Origin: a virus
Strand: one strand, 5' to 3'
IMG/VR virus record: IMGVR_UViG_3300026457_000013
Coordinates: 18,253 to 82,252 of that record
Length of the DNA: 64,000 bases
Below the pieces are notes generated by a model. That model saw only the letters and a program-made list of their open reading frames with translations, did no database searches and was not told where the DNA came from. Below, one piece after another: positions 1,470 to 38,987 of this stretch (the first letter of the stretch is position 1; the number at the start of each line of letters is the position of its first letter). The position numbers were made by a program, and so were the translations under genes.

Positions 1470-1777
1470 TGGATCAAGAGATTATTGACGCAATTAACAG
1501 TGCTCTTAAACCAAATCAACAACCACAAACACCCACAAAATTGTCGCCAAGATTTAAGGCACTGGCTAGGGAATGTGGCTTTGTATTTTGGAATAGTGAA
1601 CCACACGGCCCTGGGCCTGGACATATTGACTGGAGCTGTGATTATACTAGTGAGTTTGAACACTATAGCCGTGAACTTGTAATCTGGACTTGTGAACTAA
1701 TGCGGCAGGAGATTGTACGCGACTACTTGTTTAGATCAAGTGAAAATACATATAAGCACCTAGTAGTTCAAGATTAA
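1469..1777 (+). CDS. hypothetical protein (102 aa)
   Basis: GTG start at 1469 overlapping the preceding TAG. The product has a proline/glutamine-rich N-terminus, a central segment with aromatic residues and a GPGPGHIDW motif, and a helical C-terminus (RELVIWTCELMRQEIVRDYL). I do not recognise the family. It is the last gene before the first non-coding transcript, whose promoter begins about 10 bases after its stop. Confidence 0.65.
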   Translation: MDQEIIDAINSALKPNQQPQTPTKLSPRFKALARECGFVFWNSEPHGPGPGHIDWSCDYTSEFEHYSRELVIWTCELMRQEIVRDYLFRSSENTYKHLVVQD

Positions 1778-1787
1778 AAATTTTATC

Positions 1788-1817
1788 TTGAACTTGTAGC
1801 CCAAACCTTGCTATAAT
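1788..1817 (+). promoter_or_regulatory. promoter of ncRNA 1 (class 1 type)
   Basis: TTGAAC at 1788-1793, 18-base spacer, TATAAT at 1812-1817, followed by ATTATTATAG. The AT-rich run upstream and the ATATTATT after the -10 are shared with promoters at 3410, 3674, 4129 and 5499. Confidence 0.7.
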
Positions 1818-1822
1818 ATTAT

Positions 1823-2515
1823 TATAGTCAGTGAGGAAAGTAAAGCCTGACAAGGCCCACAGCTTTAAATGACATTTTGCCACGCTTAGTAAATATTTTA
1901 TCTTATACAAAATGTGCATTGTAGCGACCACTGACTGTACTTGGCAGTATCCTAATGGCTAATAATCTACAGGAGAAATCAACGATAAAAAATCTTAGTT
2001 GCTTCCAACAACTAAGCGCGATATAGCCAGCGTTAGGGGCTTTAGGTTAGTTGCCAAACCTCCCACTGGGCAGACATCCAGGTTTAGGGTAAAACGGTAA
2101 CGGAGTCTACCTTACTCCGACTAAGGTATGGACAGAGTAACAGCTCAAGCTAGGGCCATGTGGAAGTGGTGGCTAGCCAAATCCTCTGATGATTCATTGC
2201 GATATGATGAAACCCTAAACCCACAAGGTTGACGCTGTGGCCTTCAATTGCCGCACCTGCCGCGGTTTAGGGTAAGGATAATAAGGCCCGATAAGCTTGC
2301 TGTCACATTCCCTAGTGGCTAGCGGCCAATGTCGAGGCGGGTGAGAGTCCCGTCAACTAAAATATGTGAGTGATGGTGGACTACGCATAAGGTTATTTGA
2401 GACCTGCGGACTGTCGTCCAATAGTAACAAGACAATATGATCCAGTTTAGGGACTGGTATCATATTCAAGCACACTGGTCGCCTCGTCAAGTGTGTTTGA
2501 ATATGATTTTTCTTT
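1823..2515 (+). ncRNA. candidate large structured non-coding RNA 1 (~0.69 kb)
   Basis: The interval from the promoter at 1788 to the long terminator hairpin ending near 2515 holds no convincing ORF and many local helices: CTTAGTTG 1994-2001 with CAACTAAG 2009-2016, CGGAGT 2101-2106 with ACTCCG 2114-2119, a CGGG-TGAGAGT-CCCG stem near 2338-2353, and CCAGT/ACTGG 2442-2457 closing a TTAGGG loop. It carries TTTAGGGT at 2083 and 2266 and ACCCTAAA at 2212. Promoter, structure and terminator together support a stand-alone RNA. Size and phage setting recall the ornate large RNA classes GOLLD and ROOL, but membership is a guess without a covariance search. Confidence 0.6.
2459..2515 (+). terminator. 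long-stem terminator of ncRNA 1
   Basis: An 18-base arm at 2459-2476 pairs with 2490-2507 (one G-T wobble), loop GGTCGCCTCGTCA, followed by TTTTCTTT. The length and perfection of the stem mark the 3' end of the upstream RNA. Confidence 0.8.
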
Positions 2516-2539
2516 GGCAGCCACTTGGCTGCCGTTTTT
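2516..2539 (+). terminator. second intrinsic terminator (GGCAGCC hairpin)
   Basis: GGCAGCC-ACTT-GGCTGCC followed by GTTTTTG, directly after the first terminator. Two terminators in series insulate the RNA from the gene starting at 2553. It also explains why an upstream GTG in frame with that gene is not its start. Confidence 0.75.
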
Positions 2540-2552
2540 GTCTGGAGAACAA

Positions 2553-2795
2553 ATGTATACATGTAAAGTTGTTAACAGCTTAACTAGTGCCGTTGTTGAT
2601 GAGTTTGAGGTTGACTATCTTTACGAAGCTAGACTAAAGTTTAGCAGGTGGCATGCAGATGCAGACCCAACACAATACGATTGTCACGTCTACGACGAGT
2701 TTGGCGATGCCATAGACTTTACCAGCGATATTGATAGTAGTGTGTACGAGCCTAGTGAGTACGATGAGTGGATGAGTTATGACCCAGATTGTTAA
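2553..2795 (+). CDS. acidic hypothetical protein (80 aa)
   Basis: The frame opens inside the terminator at 2493, but ATG 2553 with GGAG at 2543-2546 is the plausible start. The product is strongly acidic, especially the second half (DEFGDAIDFTSDIDSS), with many Asp/Glu/Tyr and no recognised fold. Acidic small early phage proteins are sometimes DNA mimics or enzyme inhibitors, but nothing here shows that directly. It overlaps the next gene by 17 bases. Confidence 0.65.
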   Translation: MYTCKVVNSLTSAVVDEFEVDYLYEARLKFSRWHADADPTQYDCHVYDEFGDAIDFTSDIDSSVYEPSEYDEWMSYDPDC

Positions 2796-3033
2796 ACTTG
2801 CCAAAGAGCACGGTGCTACACACAAGGCAAACCTAGGTGTTTATCAGTTCTATGAATATGAATGGGTCAACTATAATAATGCCCTAGTTGAAGTAGCGCT
2901 AGAGGCATTACAAGACTTACGCGGATATTCGGGCGTTGGCGCCGACGGCAATCCACTGTGCACCCACAGTTGGAACAGTGCACTGCTTGCAGCTGAACAG
3001 CTTATCAAGGAGCGCATCCTTGGCACTGTATAA
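2779..3033 (+). CDS. hypothetical protein (84 aa)
   Basis: ATG 2779 lies inside the preceding gene in another frame; the remaining sequence is an open helical protein (ALVEVALEALQDLRG, ALLAAEQLIKERI) with no named motif. Overlaps on both sides indicate translational coupling within one operon. Confidence 0.6.
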   Translation: MTQIVKLAKEHGATHKANLGVYQFYEYEWVNYNNALVEVALEALQDLRGYSGVGADGNPLCTHSWNSALLAAEQLIKERILGTV

Positions 3034-3304
3034 ACACTTATGCCCAGACTGGGACTTCCTAGAAATAGACGATGAGTGTGAGGAGTTTAATACTTGTACA
3101 TGCAAGATAGATAGTAGTGGTCAAACAGCTAAATTTACCGCTGGCACTAAAGTACTAGTACTGCCAAATCAAATGCAGGCTACTGTTATCAAACAGCACC
3201 TAAGCTATGACGGGCCTGAGAGTTTTTGGGGCAATGTACTAGTAGAGTATAACGATGGTATTCGTGGTACTTGCAATAATTGGCAACTAAAATACATAGA
3301 GTAA
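3020..3304 (+). CDS. hypothetical protein (94 aa), TTG start
   Basis: The frame is open from 2936, but AAGGAG at 3008-3013 sits 6 bases before TTG 3020, which also overlaps the previous stop, so I use 3020. The product starts MALYKHLCPDWDFLEID and has an acidic, cysteine-containing N-terminal stretch (DDECEEFNTCTC) before a beta-rich C-terminal half (GTKVLVLP, GNVLVEYNDG) resembling a small SH3-like barrel. Function unknown. Confidence 0.6.
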   Translation: MALYKHLCPDWDFLEIDDECEEFNTCTCKIDSSGQTAKFTAGTKVLVLPNQMQATVIKQHLSYDGPESFWGNVLVEYNDGIRGTCNNWQLKYIE

Positions 3305-3307
3305 AAC

Positions 3308-3394
3308 ATGGATCATGACAACCACGGCTACAAGCGCACTATAATTTTTGTGTTACTGTTACTCTCACTCGTATTAGCCATGTTATTCGGCTAA
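3308..3394 (+). CDS. 28-aa single-TM micropeptide
   Basis: ATG 3308 to TAA 3392-3394. A charged N-terminus (DHDNHGYKR) is followed by one hydrophobic helix (TIIFVLLLLSLVLAMLFG). No strong Shine-Dalgarno is visible and the start is 3 bases after the previous stop, so translation would rely on coupling. Small one-TM peptides are frequent in phage early regions, but this is supported only by its sequence character and position. Confidence 0.4.
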   Translation: MDHDNHGYKRTIIFVLLLLSLVLAMLFG

Positions 3395-3409
3395 ACGGAA
3401 AATATTCTC

Positions 3410-3438
3410 TTGAAGTGCCGGCCTAACCAGTGTATAAT
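3410..3438 (+). promoter_or_regulatory. promoter (class 1 type) for the gene at 3463
   Basis: TTGAAG 3410-3415, 17-base spacer, TATAAT 3433-3438 within GTATAATATTTAT; the upstream AATATTC matches the other class 1 promoters. It drives 3463-3663 after a short leader containing GAGGAG. Confidence 0.75.
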
Positions 3439-3462
3439 ATTTATATAATGTGAGGAGCGACA

Positions 3463-3663
3463 ATGACTATTGAAGTGTATACACGTAAGGCTAAATTTGC
3501 CGAACTTAGTGCATATTGCCTTCACGCTAGTGATGGTGATTTTATGGAGGTATGTGAGTGGAGTAATGGTGAAGGGTTTGATGTTACCATCAACAACCGT
3601 ACCCTGCAGTTCACATATGGCCAGTGGGACTGTTTACGAGTTTTGGTAAATTATAAAGACTAG
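3463..3663 (+). CDS. small hypothetical protein (66 aa)
   Basis: ATG 3463 with GAGGAG at 3452-3457. The product is a compact mixed alpha/beta protein (KAKFAELSAYCLHA, GEGFDVTINNRTLQFTYGQ) with its own promoter and a class 1 promoter again just downstream, so it is probably expressed monocistronically and abundantly. Family not recognised. Confidence 0.65.
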   Translation: MTIEVYTRKAKFAELSAYCLHASDGDFMEVCEWSNGEGFDVTINNRTLQFTYGQWDCLRVLVNYKD

Positions 3664-3673
3664 AAATATTCAC

Positions 3674-3702
3674 TTGATTTGTTGGTCAGAAGTCTGTATA
3701 AT
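3674..3702 (+). promoter_or_regulatory. promoter (class 1 type) for the gene at 3825
   Basis: TTGATT 3674-3679, 17-base spacer, TATAAT 3697-3702 followed by ATTATTTAT, preceded by AAATATTCAC as in the promoter at 4129. Confidence 0.75.
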
Positions 3703-3709
3703 ATTATTT

Positions 3710-3795
3710 ATCGGTTAGAGAACAATCGCCAGAGAGTACAACCAACTAATATTCGGGCTAAGCTATGACTTAGCAGCGGTACTCCCTCTAACCCT
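3710..3795 (+). promoter_or_regulatory. structured 5' leader of the gene at 3825
   Basis: Nested helices: GGTTAGAG 3713-3720 with CTCTAACC 3786-3793, GAGTAC 3734-3739 with GTACTC 3779-3784, and GCTAAG 3757-3762 with CTTAGC 3769-3774 closing a CTATGA loop. The fold sits between the promoter and the Shine-Dalgarno AAGGAG (about 3815). It could be a cis-regulatory element or just mRNA protection; it does not match a riboswitch class I recognise. Confidence 0.55.
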
Positions 3796-3824
3796 AGACA
3801 AATAGCAAATTACAAGGAGCACCT

Positions 3825-4118
3825 ATGCGATTCAAGTATACTGCAAAGAAGCCTAGCCGAGATCAGCTTGCTGGCATGAGTGCTAGCCAATTTAAGACCA
3901 TGTTAAAGCGTAAGGGTTTTAAGGTTGATCGTGACTTCTTTAAGATAGGTGCAATGGCTAAGCGTGGTAACAGACTGTATCGCTTTCGTTACTGGGCATA
4001 CCCTGATTTCTTTGTAGACATTAGCTGCCCTCTCGATGAATTTGATCGTTGGGCTAATAGTGTGGACAGTACCATTAACTTCTACAACTTCATCGAAACA
4101 CAAACACTAAAGCAGTAA
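3825..4118 (+). CDS. hypothetical basic protein (97 aa)
   Basis: ATG 3825 after an AAGGAG Shine-Dalgarno. The N-terminal half is rich in Lys/Arg (MRFKYTAKKPSRDQ, KTMLKRKGFKVDRDFF, AKRGNRLYRFRYW), the C-terminal half is acidic and aromatic. It may bind nucleic acid, but there is no named motif. It is expressed from its own class 1 promoter through a folded leader and is followed by the promoter of the longest non-coding RNA. Confidence 0.65.
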   Translation: MRFKYTAKKPSRDQLAGMSASQFKTMLKRKGFKVDRDFFKIGAMAKRGNRLYRFRYWAYPDFFVDISCPLDEFDRWANSVDSTINFYNFIETQTLKQ

Positions 4119-4128
4119 AAATATTCAC

Positions 4129-4157
4129 TTGAAGTTTATGTTCCCACAGTGTATAAT
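4129..4157 (+). promoter_or_regulatory. promoter of ncRNA 2 (class 1 type)
   Basis: TTGAAG 4129-4134, 17-base spacer, TATAAT 4152-4157 within GTATAATATTATTATT; AAAATATTCAC directly upstream. This is the most complete copy of the class 1 consensus. Confidence 0.8.
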
Positions 4158-4163
4158 ATTATT

Positions 4164-5230
4164 ATTGAGTGACAAGTTTAGGGCGAACCAGGGCCAACAT
4201 TAATCTGTTGGATAAGTTCTTAATCTGTGTTGAAAACACCCTTAACACAGACCCCACGAATGGCAGATGGTCGTTGTTAAATGTGGATACTAAAAATATC
4301 CGCTCCTGAAAGGTGCAAATCCTAAAAGTATAGTCGGGCGAGAAGGCCGGGCAATCCAAGGAGATCAACCAAGGGCTATATGCAGAGTGCCAGGTAAAAA
4401 CAACATTGACCAACCAACCTATTTGTATAATCACCGGCTTGATCCCATGCAACTGGTGGTTATACAAATGTGTTGAAATCTGTGGCCAACGTGCTTGCGT
4501 AGCTAACCTGCTGCGGAACGGACGCACATGGTGGAAGCTGCAACCACCCTAAAGGAACCAGCCCCCTAGTTTGTCAATAGTTATAGGGGTTAACCAAAAG
4601 ACCTGTTACCGTAGCATATACGTAGTTATGCGTTATCTAACACGAGAGTTAGAAACCAGTGGAGCCGATTCTGCGAAAGCATGGCGGCCACCCACTACAT
4701 GCCAGTAGCTCAAACGTGCTCAGAGCAAAGGTGTGCTAGAAATAAGCCCTCTAGCCTGGCCAACAATTCAAACACAGTGCAGAGTGAACATTAGCCTATA
4801 GCTAGCTGCCAGCAACTAAAAACAGTGCGTTGCTAAGGTTTGAAACCGATCCAGTTTAGGGTCGGGGTTTAGCAGTAACCTAAAACTGCTTGTGCCCTAA
4901 GGGGCCAATGCGCCAACAATAAATGGCAAGGCTATAACCACAGTGCCTGGTTAGTCGCGTTCTTATAATTGTTAATAGCCCTCAACGCAGGGTAATCTAG
5001 GTGCAAATCCTAGACGCGCTAGTTGCCCATCTTGGCTGGAACCCAAGACCTAAAGCAACTAAGAACAGCAAATGTTCGTGGCATCAACTACACCGACTTA
5101 CGACGACTCGCAATCGTCTAGAGTGTAGACAAAGATGAATGGTGGTCGTAGTAGCACTACATAAAAGTAATCCACCCCATTAAACCAAAAACAGCGCAGT
5201 TCAAAAGCCCGCCTTGTGCGGGCTTTTGTT
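4164..5230 (+). ncRNA. candidate giant structured non-coding RNA 2 (~1.07 kb)
   Basis: Bounded by a strong promoter (4129-4157) and an intrinsic terminator (5203-5230), with no plausible plus-strand ORF between. Local helices include a 17-bp stem 4421-4437/4453-4469 with wobble pairs, TCTAAC 4636-4641/GTTAGA 4648-4653, a TGC-GAAA-GCA tetraloop hairpin 4672-4681, and a T-arm-like hairpin at 4997-5013 inside a three-way-junction-like arrangement. The 14-mer AGGTGCAAATCCTA occurs twice (4311, 4999). It shares GATCCAGTTTAGGG (4848-4861) with ncRNA 1 (2439-2452). Length and ornate folding recall GOLLD/ROOL-type phage RNAs; that assignment is inference and unproven. Confidence 0.65.
5203..5230 (+). 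terminator. intrinsic terminator of ncRNA 2
   Basis: AAAAGCCCGC 5203-5212 pairs with GCGGGCTTTT 5218-5227 around a CTTGT loop, then GTTTAT. The same CTTGT-type loop recurs in the terminators at 6941 and 8514. Confidence 0.9.
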
Positions 5231-5250
5231 TATCTAAAAGGCTATAAAAC

Positions 5251-5463
5251 ATGTCTCAAGAATTAACCAACCAGCAACTAAAAGACCTTAACGACGATGT
5301 CCAAGAATTCATCGACAAGCTAAGGATACACTACAACGACGATACCCTAGCCATTGCAGCAGCACTAACGCAGTGGGGGCTAAGGCTTTACAAGAGTGAG
5401 CTGAGCACACCAGAATTCTACCAACTATTAGTCTACACAATTGAAACTAACCGCTTCCTCTGA
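5251..5463 (+). CDS. small hypothetical protein (70 aa)
   Basis: ATG 5251 lies 20 bases after the ncRNA 2 terminator; the upstream AAAAGG is a modest Shine-Dalgarno. The product is all-helical (DVQEFIDKLRIHYNDDTLAI, LRLYKSELSTPEFYQLL). The stop is part of a TTTAGGGTC-family 9-mer (GACCCTAAA at 5462). No separate promoter is evident, so it may depend on read-through of the terminator. Function unknown. Confidence 0.6.
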   Translation: MSQELTNQQLKDLNDDVQEFIDKLRIHYNDDTLAIAAALTQWGLRLYKSELSTPEFYQLLVYTIETNRFL

Positions 5464-5498
5464 CCCTAAACCTCAACAACCCTCACTAAAAAATTCAC

Positions 5499-5528
5499 TT
5501 GTTTTTGCTTATGCAAATGTGATATAAT
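5499..5528 (+). promoter_or_regulatory. promoter (class 1 type) of the leader RNA at 5535
   Basis: TTGTTT 5499-5504, 18-base spacer, TATAAT 5523-5528 followed by TTATTATAA; AAATTCAC directly upstream matches the class. The -35 box is weaker than in the other copies. Confidence 0.65.
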
Positions 5529-5534
5529 TTATTA

Positions 5535-5787
5535 TAAATTGAAAAAATTTAGAATTAGCAGCTGTACAGTGCAACTAGTACAAAACTCTGGGGGGTGTCC
5601 TGGCAAGGGGGGATCCAGGGGGCTTTGTGCTAGGTAGCTCGCAACCGGTACAAGGCTAGCTAATTCTAGAGATTTAGGGTCAAATCTCGAACCTTAAAAA
5701 GAGCAAATATAAAAATTAAAGCAAATTTTCCCACCCCCCAAAAGTGCTCCAGCCCTAGCAAAACCACAACTAACCAAACAAGCTAAA
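5535..5787 (+). ncRNA. structured leader / candidate ncRNA 3 upstream of 5788
   Basis: About 250 nt with no ORF. Clear pairings: AGAATTAGC 5551-5559 with GCTAATTCT 5659-5667; CTAGTACAAA 5575-5584 with TTTGTGCTAG 5624-5633; GAGATTT/AAATCTC 5669-5688 with the TTTAGGGTC motif in the loop region; and a 9-bp long-range match TGGGGGGTG 5589-5597 with CACCCCCCA 5732-5740. GAGCA 5701-5705 can pair with TGCTC 5745-5749. No T-run terminator lies before the ATG at 5788, and that gene lacks a good Shine-Dalgarno, so this reads as a cis-acting leader, though a processed RNA is possible. Confidence 0.55.
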
Positions 5788-6537
5788 ATGTATATTAGAC
5801 AGCAAGATATAAAAACCTTAGAACTGGATCACCTAGCCAATCAAGCTACTGAATCAATTGAAACCTGGGTAAAAGACAACAATCTTTGCAACCATGCTAG
5901 CTGGCTACTACCACAGCTGGTAAATTGGTTTGGCAGCTGGCAACTCTACAATGACGGTAAAACTACTGTAGCCAAAAATTGCACCAATAATTGGGCTCGT
6001 GCCATTTATAGGATTAGTCGTGTAAAGCGTAGCTTGCTCATTAGAACACAAACTAAACTGCCACAGTATGGGCAGCTAACTCCACTCCTTATGTTAGGAT
6101 TTAAGCGCTATCAAGGTTATAGCTATGAACAATTTCGTGAAATCGAGGGCTTAGAGTGGTTGCTGGAACCTGATTTATATGAATCACTAGTAAATATAGA
6201 GCCTATAGACCTTAGCCAAAACAGACTACTAGCTATACGCACTCAAGGGTTAATTACAAAAAGCGGATCAAAAACTGGTGAGCTTAAAAATCCAGAGAGT
6301 ACTTGGTCACTAACAGGTATCAAGGACACTGAATTAGGCAACTACCCTAAACTTGTGCAAACTATGGTTTGTCAAATTTGGCTAGCACATCCCAAGCATC
6401 GTAACAGTGACATGATCTTAGACCCTAATAATTGGGATGCAATGCCTAAACCATTAATAGATGATACAAGCGGCATTGTTAGTGTATCCAAGGAATCGAC
6501 CAAGGTGCTAACACGCGAGATATTGCCATGGGACTAA
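5788..6537 (+). CDS. hypothetical protein (249 aa)
   Basis: ATG 5788 is preceded by an A/C-rich stretch with no Shine-Dalgarno, so initiation may be controlled by the folded leader. The protein is rich in Trp and Tyr (NWFGSWQLYN, NNWARAIYRISRVKR) and ends DTSGIVSVSKESTKV...LPWD. The middle contains a basic patch (ISRVKRSLLIRTQTKL). I do not recognise a family. It is followed after about 60 bases by the first HTH gene. Confidence 0.7.
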   Translation: MYIRQQDIKTLELDHLANQATESIETWVKDNNLCNHASWLLPQLVNWFGSWQLYNDGKTTVAKNCTNNWARAIYRISRVKRSLLIRTQTKLPQYGQLTPLLMLGFKRYQGYSYEQFREIEGLEWLLEPDLYESLVNIEPIDLSQNRLLAIRTQGLITKSGSKTGELKNPESTWSLTGIKDTELGNYPKLVQTMVCQIWLAHPKHRNSDMILDPNNWDAMPKPLIDDTSGIVSVSKESTKVLTREILPWD

Positions 6538-38387: not shown

Positions 38388-38987
38388 ATGGTTCCTGCAA
38401 AAGTTAATTATAAAATTTATCAGGGTACTACCTTTAAACAAGTATATCGCTGGGAAACCGATACCAAGTATTATGCTAATGTACAGTCTATAAGTAAGAG
38501 CGGACCTTGTATAATTACTACTAGTGCCGCACACAGTATACCACCTGGATGGCGTATTAGAATTACCAATGTTGGTGGTATGAAAGAAATTAATAGTACT
38601 GGTGATGATGATTATCATTTTGTTAATAATGTTACAGCCAGCACATTAACTGTTAATAGTATTAATAGTAGTGGCTATACTAATTATACTACTGGCGGAA
38701 CAGTAGAGTATTATGCTCCTTATCCGCTGCAATACTATAGTGCTGTATTACAAATTAGAGCAAATGTTAATAGTGATACAGTTATACTAGCACTAAATAG
38801 TGGAGCTGGTGGAGGCATTGTACTAGATACAAATAATAGTACAATAACAGTTACATTAACTGCTCAACAAACAGCGCAATTTAACTTTACTACTGCCGTT
38901 TACGGCATGGAATTAACAGATACTAGTGGCAATGTAACTCCGTTTATTGCTGGCAATATAACTGTGGTAAAGGATGTAATACGATGA
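38388..38987 (+). CDS. beta-rich tail-associated protein (199 aa)
   Basis: ATG 38388. Starts [20 protein letters not shown]; rich in Asn/Thr/Ser/Gly, almost all beta strand. Two halves may be jelly-roll or baseplate-like domains. Encoded just before the collagen-like proteins, so probably attaches to or decorates the tail tip. Function not visible. Confidence 0.6.

Follow-up and report, generated by a model that had tools for sequence, protein, structure and literature searches.

The tRNA arrays of T4- and T5-type phages carry extra stable RNAs. GOLLD and ROOL are non-coding RNAs of phages and prophages that occur in tRNA islands and contain kissing loops, and whose function is not known (PMC12286853). 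Hammerhead ribozymes are also known in phages, PaP3 and Bcep176 among them (PMC3088659). The locus described here resembles GOLLD (RF02032) in being a phage-encoded non-coding RNA, often beside tRNA islands, whose 3' region is conserved and whose 5' region varies (PMC12286853), but the GOLLD model has 416 positions compared to 192 in the conserved core of this locus, which also has a hammerhead motif and linker hairpins. The GOLLD covariance model finds no match in the genome of the window's phage and reaches 5.1 bits in that of the relative L004. ROOL, likewise a phage or prophage RNA found near tRNA islands, has a complex fold too (PMC12286853), whereas the core is compact, about 190 nt, and no ROOL match was obtained at the locus in Rfam searches with E values up to 10. 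The hammerhead shares its catalytic-core sequence and three stems with those of PaP3 and Bcep176 but, unlike them, is embedded in a conserved non-coding RNA at a site where cutting would free the 5' end of that RNA, and its Rfam scores are weak. As in T4- and T5-type arrays, non-coding RNAs are encoded together with tRNAs; the core model, however, has no match in T5, Vibrio phage X1 or Curvibacter phage P26059A. A literature search, with most subscription journals outside its scope, found no paper describing the core, the linker hairpin or a hammerhead in an end-forming role.

The window, the 64,000-nt stretch of DNA that was analyzed, comprises positions 18253-82252 of an 82,252-nt virus record. 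The phage's terminase and those of T5-like Vibrio phages share about 48% identity. In the first 18 kb of the record, outside the window, there are a tRNA array and a tmRNA call; the latter (L099, 180-577 of the record) is of the permuted type, has the tag ANDEVFALAA and lies beside a tRNA-Thr. In locus L058 a permuted tmRNA is also found 3' of the core, at 899-1278. The phage, which is of 'freshwater-type', is predicted to make an RNA of about 0.7 kb that encodes no protein. The 5' part of its locus contains the following features.

1788-1817, + strand: predicted promoter, TTGAAC-18-TATAAT with a TG ahead of it
1823-1940, + strand: 5' domain with an 11-bp closing helix, UAUAGUCAGUG/CACUGACUGUA, limited to a clade of four phages
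1994-2016, + strand: hairpin, covarying
2101-2119, + strand: second hairpin, altered on both sides in relatives

The promoter is kept in three full-length relatives, L004, L063 and L054. With a predicted start near 1824 and an end near 2512 or 2539, the RNA would be 0.69-0.72 kb long. No open reading frame wholly inside the locus is longer than 48 aa, and the insertions and deletions that separate the relatives across the locus have lengths that are not multiples of three. The sequence-only reading was right to propose a promoter and no open reading frame, and the two hairpins that it had called stable are borne out by comparison: the one at 1994-2016 is rebuilt from CTTAGTTG/CAACTAAG to CTCGGCCAT/ATGGCCGAG, and the one at 2101-2119 has two-sided changes as well. 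Two IMG/VR contigs, reached via a neighboring gene, contain the locus at 83% identity with the gene order preserved, and the further full-length relatives L063 and L054 are 76% and 72% identical over the 5' part. A blastn search with 1700-5800 of the window found no match among known phages, and ARAGORN and Rfam gave no tRNA or tmRNA match at the locus. In the four-phage alignment of the 5' part, 25 of 109 predicted pairs have changed on both sides, which argues for a non-coding structure under selection. The fold predicted for the segment 1823-2540 is unusually stable, at -237.9 kcal/mol (z of -4.6, relative to 20 shuffles only). There is strong support for a structured non-coding RNA with its own predicted promoter.

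The conserved 3' core of this RNA was first exposed by a match in a phage in which many tRNA genes surround it.

2282-2458, + strand: conserved RNA core; covariance model R1 matches 2282-2469 with 189 bits
2310-2314, + strand: invariant CCCUA, present in 36 of 36 homologues, the proposed kissing partner of UAGGG
2448-2452, + strand: invariant UAGGG, part of the hairpin A loop

More than 40 IMG/VR contigs contain the core, as does the isolate Limnohabitans phage DC31. A 17-base motif occurs in 39 contig stretches, 3 of which are false positives in coding sequence. A second, different motif led to another 13 loci, which score 73-149 bits against the whole model, several of them with a different P5 hairpin, and the linker pattern described below added 8 more core loci, three of them remote. 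L067, L071 and L073, as well as second-motif loci without a full model match, were discarded as chance matches. The alignment of 25 non-redundant members has a common fold: a closing helix, P2, in some members a T-loop-like hairpin, a long P5, the GGAYYGUCGUCC hairpin and, with its UUUAGGG loop, hairpin A. Pairing holds in 96.7% of the alignment cells and collapses when the alignment is slid. Two-sided changes are found at 23 of the 36 base pairs and in 126 pair cells, compared to 36 cells in shuffles; by every measure, 0 of 500 shuffles did as well. The proposed kissing contact between CCCUA and UAGGG draws no support from covariation because both motifs are invariant. Every record that has the core contains exactly one copy according to model R1. 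That of DC31 lies in an unannotated gap and was found only when relatives' cores were used as queries. A pattern scan of one genome per species, covering 84,980 prokaryote species, returned short chance matches and no core, and Rfam, at gathering thresholds and with E up to 10, gave nothing convincing for the locus apart from a hammerhead in L054. The core is a well-supported RNA family without an Rfam entry.

In most cases the core is located within a cluster of tRNA genes. A tRNA is located within 5 kb of 32 of the 36 cores, and a CCA precedes 19 of the 36 by no more than 14 nt, following a tRNA T-arm in about a dozen cases. About a dozen of the 36 start 4-12 nt after the CCA of a tRNA. Cores with neither a tRNA nor a hammerhead next to them include L048, L060 and L066. 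In the window's phage and three relatives, a hammerhead motif takes the place of the upstream tRNA; this motif first came to light as an Rfam Hammerhead_3 match in L054.

2181-2279, + strand: hammerhead ribozyme motif in the type I arrangement, identified from its strands, its conservation in four phages and Rfam
2181-2185 and 2275-2279, + strand: stem I, 5 bp
2186-2192, + strand: CUGAUGA strand
2193-2208, + strand: stem II, 4-5 bp across the phages, covarying
2209-2211, + strand: GAA
2212-2221 and 2264-2273, + strand: stem III, 10 bp

CUGAUGA, GAA and the GUA cleavage site are kept in all four phages, so that the catalytic strands are complete, and all three helices can be drawn. Stem I is kept as AUCCU/AGGAU. 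Stem II has been rebuilt between the phages (UUCAU/AUGAU, GCUGG/CCAGC, GCCAC/GUGGC); it pairs fully in three of them, and in the window has 4 bp beyond a U-U. Stem III has 9-10 bp in the window and L054; a single mismatch interrupts it in L004, and a bulge does so in L063. Hammerhead_3 (RF00008) matches the same place in the four phages with 28.0, 23.2, 16.3 and 12.6 bits, the last being the window's, and none of these reaches the gathering score of 48.5; the RF00163 model does not match there. The long loop of stem III may be responsible for the low scores. A scan of 60 shuffled windows gave a single match to the strict motif. A type III hammerhead using an earlier GGUUUAGGGUA strand near 2081 was rejected, since its stem I is unpaired and the strand is lost in L063 and L054. 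Elsewhere, the record behind L066 (G015) contains a second hammerhead-like match (38684-38735, 23.5 bits with RF00008) about 12 kb upstream of its core. The predicted cut, 2274|2275, is 7 nt before the first position of the core model. The built-in hammerhead appears to cut the RNA right at the 5' edge of the core and free a conserved RNA of about 240 bases.

The 3' side of the core is arranged around three short strands, followed by the terminators and the next gene.

2434-2441, + strand: strand s1, AAUAUGAU, which makes up hairpin A together with s2
2459-2507, + strand: linker hairpin B, the 18-bp stem; s2 is 2459-2466, and s3, identical to s1, is 2500-2507
2508-2512, + strand: U-tract that turns hairpin B into a predicted terminator in the window's phage
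2515-2539, + strand: second predicted intrinsic terminator, conserved in four phages
2553-2795, + strand: downstream gene, 80 aa, no family match, synteny conserved

Strands s1 and s3 consist of the same eight bases and both are complementary to s2. Both hairpins use s2, and a closed hairpin A keeps the 18-bp stem of B from forming in full. In 29 of 35 members, as scored automatically, the 5' strand of B and the 3' strand of A share at least 4 nt. The pairing of s1 with s2 covaries at six of six pairs, and the three strands change together: ACUAUG/CAUAGU/ACUAUG in L048 and AAUAUAG/CUAUAUU/AAUAUAG in L060. L079 has no linker after the core; there hairpin A is kept with unrelated bases, and a tRNA follows 8 nt downstream. 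According to nearest-neighbor energies, B is favored over A by 2.6 kcal/mol in the window and by 1.2 to 10.8 kcal/mol in six of seven other members, the difference in L063 being 0.2 kcal/mol the other way. Hairpin A would thus need processing or tertiary help, although a nascent RNA ending before s3 is predicted to fold it. The three-strand layout may therefore represent a refolding coupled to processing. A CCA as the universal mature 3' end was considered and dropped, as the window's clade has UCA and other members also deviate.

The tandem terminators of the sequence-only reading are confirmed as sequences, its interpretation of them in part. The 18-bp stem (2459-2507) followed by TTTTTC, and then a second stem (2515-2534) followed by TTTTT, are present, and the TTTTTC with the second terminator (TTTTTCTTTGGCAGCC...GGCTGCC-TTTT) is kept in four of four full-length homologues. 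It is this conservation that supports them, as the count of terminator-like matches by itself is near chance (6 found, 4.3 expected). The 18-bp stem, however, is one copy of a hairpin that is dispersed among phages. Its loop is longer in L004, L063 and L054, where a different RNA module comes next in place of a U-tract, and in tRNA arrays hairpins of this type separate RNAs. The further claim, that transcription has to be kept out of the gene at 2553, is open to doubt: a mere 13 nt lie between the second U-tract and the ATG, leaving no space for a promoter, so the gene probably relies on read-through or on a promoter within the RNA.

The dispersed hairpin, CCATATTGAAGCACATT...AGTGTGTTTCAATATGG, is found in more than 80 phage-contig stretches, nearly all with tRNAs. 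The exact-arm pattern gives 89 stretches in viral contigs, in a search whose design imposes loops of 30-60 nt and the exact arm sequence, of which variants exist. Eighty-three of the 85 copies that were parsed are in loci with tRNAs on the same strand, 23 begin with the tRNA's own CCA, and their loops are unrelated. Sixty-two such hairpins are listed for the core loci, 15 of them after a core and 11 at a tRNA 3' end; some entries are one element read again from its reverse strand, and a few hairpins probably do not belong to the type. In the window's copy, which has a short apex and the U-tract, C-G replaces G-C as a compensated variant. In large-phage contigs (up to 353 kb; L157, L165, L174, L184 and others) the linker repeatedly follows an unrecognized element that ends in CCGCCGGGGGATGCAGAG.

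Other modules appear around the core as well.

4262-4412, + strand: module Z, about 150 nt, within a 1.1-kb RNA

This neighboring 1.1-kb non-coding RNA (4129-5235) is conserved in L004 and L063, and its 150-nt module is present or absent as a block, missing from the version in L004. In the comparison of the two RNAs that was suggested earlier, the core model gives no convincing match in the 1.1-kb RNA (6.3 bits, E of 0.029, filters off), but module Z adjoins the core directly upstream in L062, L079, L129 and L193. Module Y, about 110 nt, follows the core in L004 and L063 and precedes it in L053. RNA modules are shuffled between phages in this way. UUUAGGG motifs recur in both RNAs, and 14 of the 21 copies in the window (both strands) are in its first 7.2 kb. 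Two more apparently non-coding stretches, 3664-3820 and 5489-5790, have a promoter of the same type (AAATATTCACTTGA...TATAAT).

Overall, the locus is probably a transcription unit for a processed, structured RNA that acts in trans. Judging by the promoter and terminator sequences, transcription would start near 1824 and mostly end at the tandem terminators. The nascent RNA would fold the hammerhead and be cut at 2274|2275 into a 5' piece of about 450 nt and a 3' RNA of about 240 nt, the latter being the putative conserved product. In relatives in which the core is placed just after a tRNA, the same 5' edge would be produced by tRNA 3' processing, as their arrangement suggests. In the precursor s2 would pair with s3 as hairpin B, a linker and, in the window's phage, also a terminator. 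Trimming of duplex B by a nuclease, e.g. RNase III, might then allow s2 to pair again with s1 and close hairpin A, whereupon the mature RNA would act in trans. As there is one copy per record, kept among phage tRNAs, a role related to translation, tRNA or host defense seems most likely. The sequence-only reading of a single, anonymous RNA of about 0.69 kb holds for a structured non-coding RNA with its own promoter, but is too coarse: the RNA is made up of modules and probably cleaves itself at 2274|2275, and its functional unit is likely the 3' core of about 240 nt rather than the whole.

The same three strands are laid out like an antiterminator and a terminator, and it is conceivable, although unlikely, that the core is a cis-acting attenuator or riboswitch, which senses a ligand and sets termination at B before the next gene by the choice between A and B. 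B with a U-tract precedes a ribosome-binding site in L048, L051, L065, L069 and L135; in the window B and the U-tract are followed by the second terminator and then a ribosome-binding site, and, as described, no promoter fits before the gene at 2553. Although the two helices are mutually exclusive, a U-tract follows B in a minority of members and is missing from most B copies, and B-type hairpins also follow tRNAs. Nor is the kind of downstream gene constant across members: tRNAs (Leu, Thr, Ala, Glu, Met), a DUF7275 gene and unrelated small open reading frames are found there. In the DC31 group (L087, 6260-7072; L049, L052, L075, L077) a gene for a protein of about 270 aa, DUF7275/DUF7277 in DC31, comes right after the core, and in most members its Shine-Dalgarno sequence abuts the linker hairpin.

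That one large ornate RNA acts whole, as a GOLLD- or ROOL-like molecule and perhaps as a kissing-loop multimer, is quite improbable. The size, the tRNA-island context, the T-loop-like hairpin and the invariant CCCUA and UAGGG loops are of the GOLLD and ROOL kind, but no large-RNA family in Rfam matches, the GOLLD model included. The 5' 450 nt exist in four phages only, the core standing alone elsewhere at about 190-240 nt, and the hammerhead motif separates the two. It is very unlikely that the linker hairpins are attC-like mobile or recombination elements and the modules their cassettes, with B having no role at the RNA level. The near-identical arms with unrelated loops in so many contig stretches, as well as the shifts of modules Y and Z relative to the core, would suit such elements. 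However, the recurrent mismatches are G-U on the RNA sense strand, as RNA pairing allows, the linkers share their strand with the tRNAs, none of the listed loci having a tRNA on the other strand, and s1, within the core, covaries with the linker arm.

Beyond the trans-acting RNA proposed for this locus, a wider picture can be offered tentatively, with the balance somewhat against it. Diverse phages, with contigs up to about 400 kb, might carry arrays of RNA cassettes in which tRNAs and unrelated structured RNAs, each with its end at or near a CCA, are followed by a common hairpin that marks RNA ends for processing and provides the shuffling of cassettes with a shared sequence; ends would be freed by tRNA maturation or by an embedded hammerhead, and refolding would follow cleavage of the hairpin. 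The locus points to such modular arrays of phage non-coding RNAs built with a common hairpin, and it is a candidate for a naturally occurring hammerhead that takes over from tRNA processing in making one end of an RNA. Phage DC31, as an isolate, is a testable source of an RNA family that is new to Rfam. The core family may help to explain the role of the non-tRNA RNAs in phage tRNA islands.
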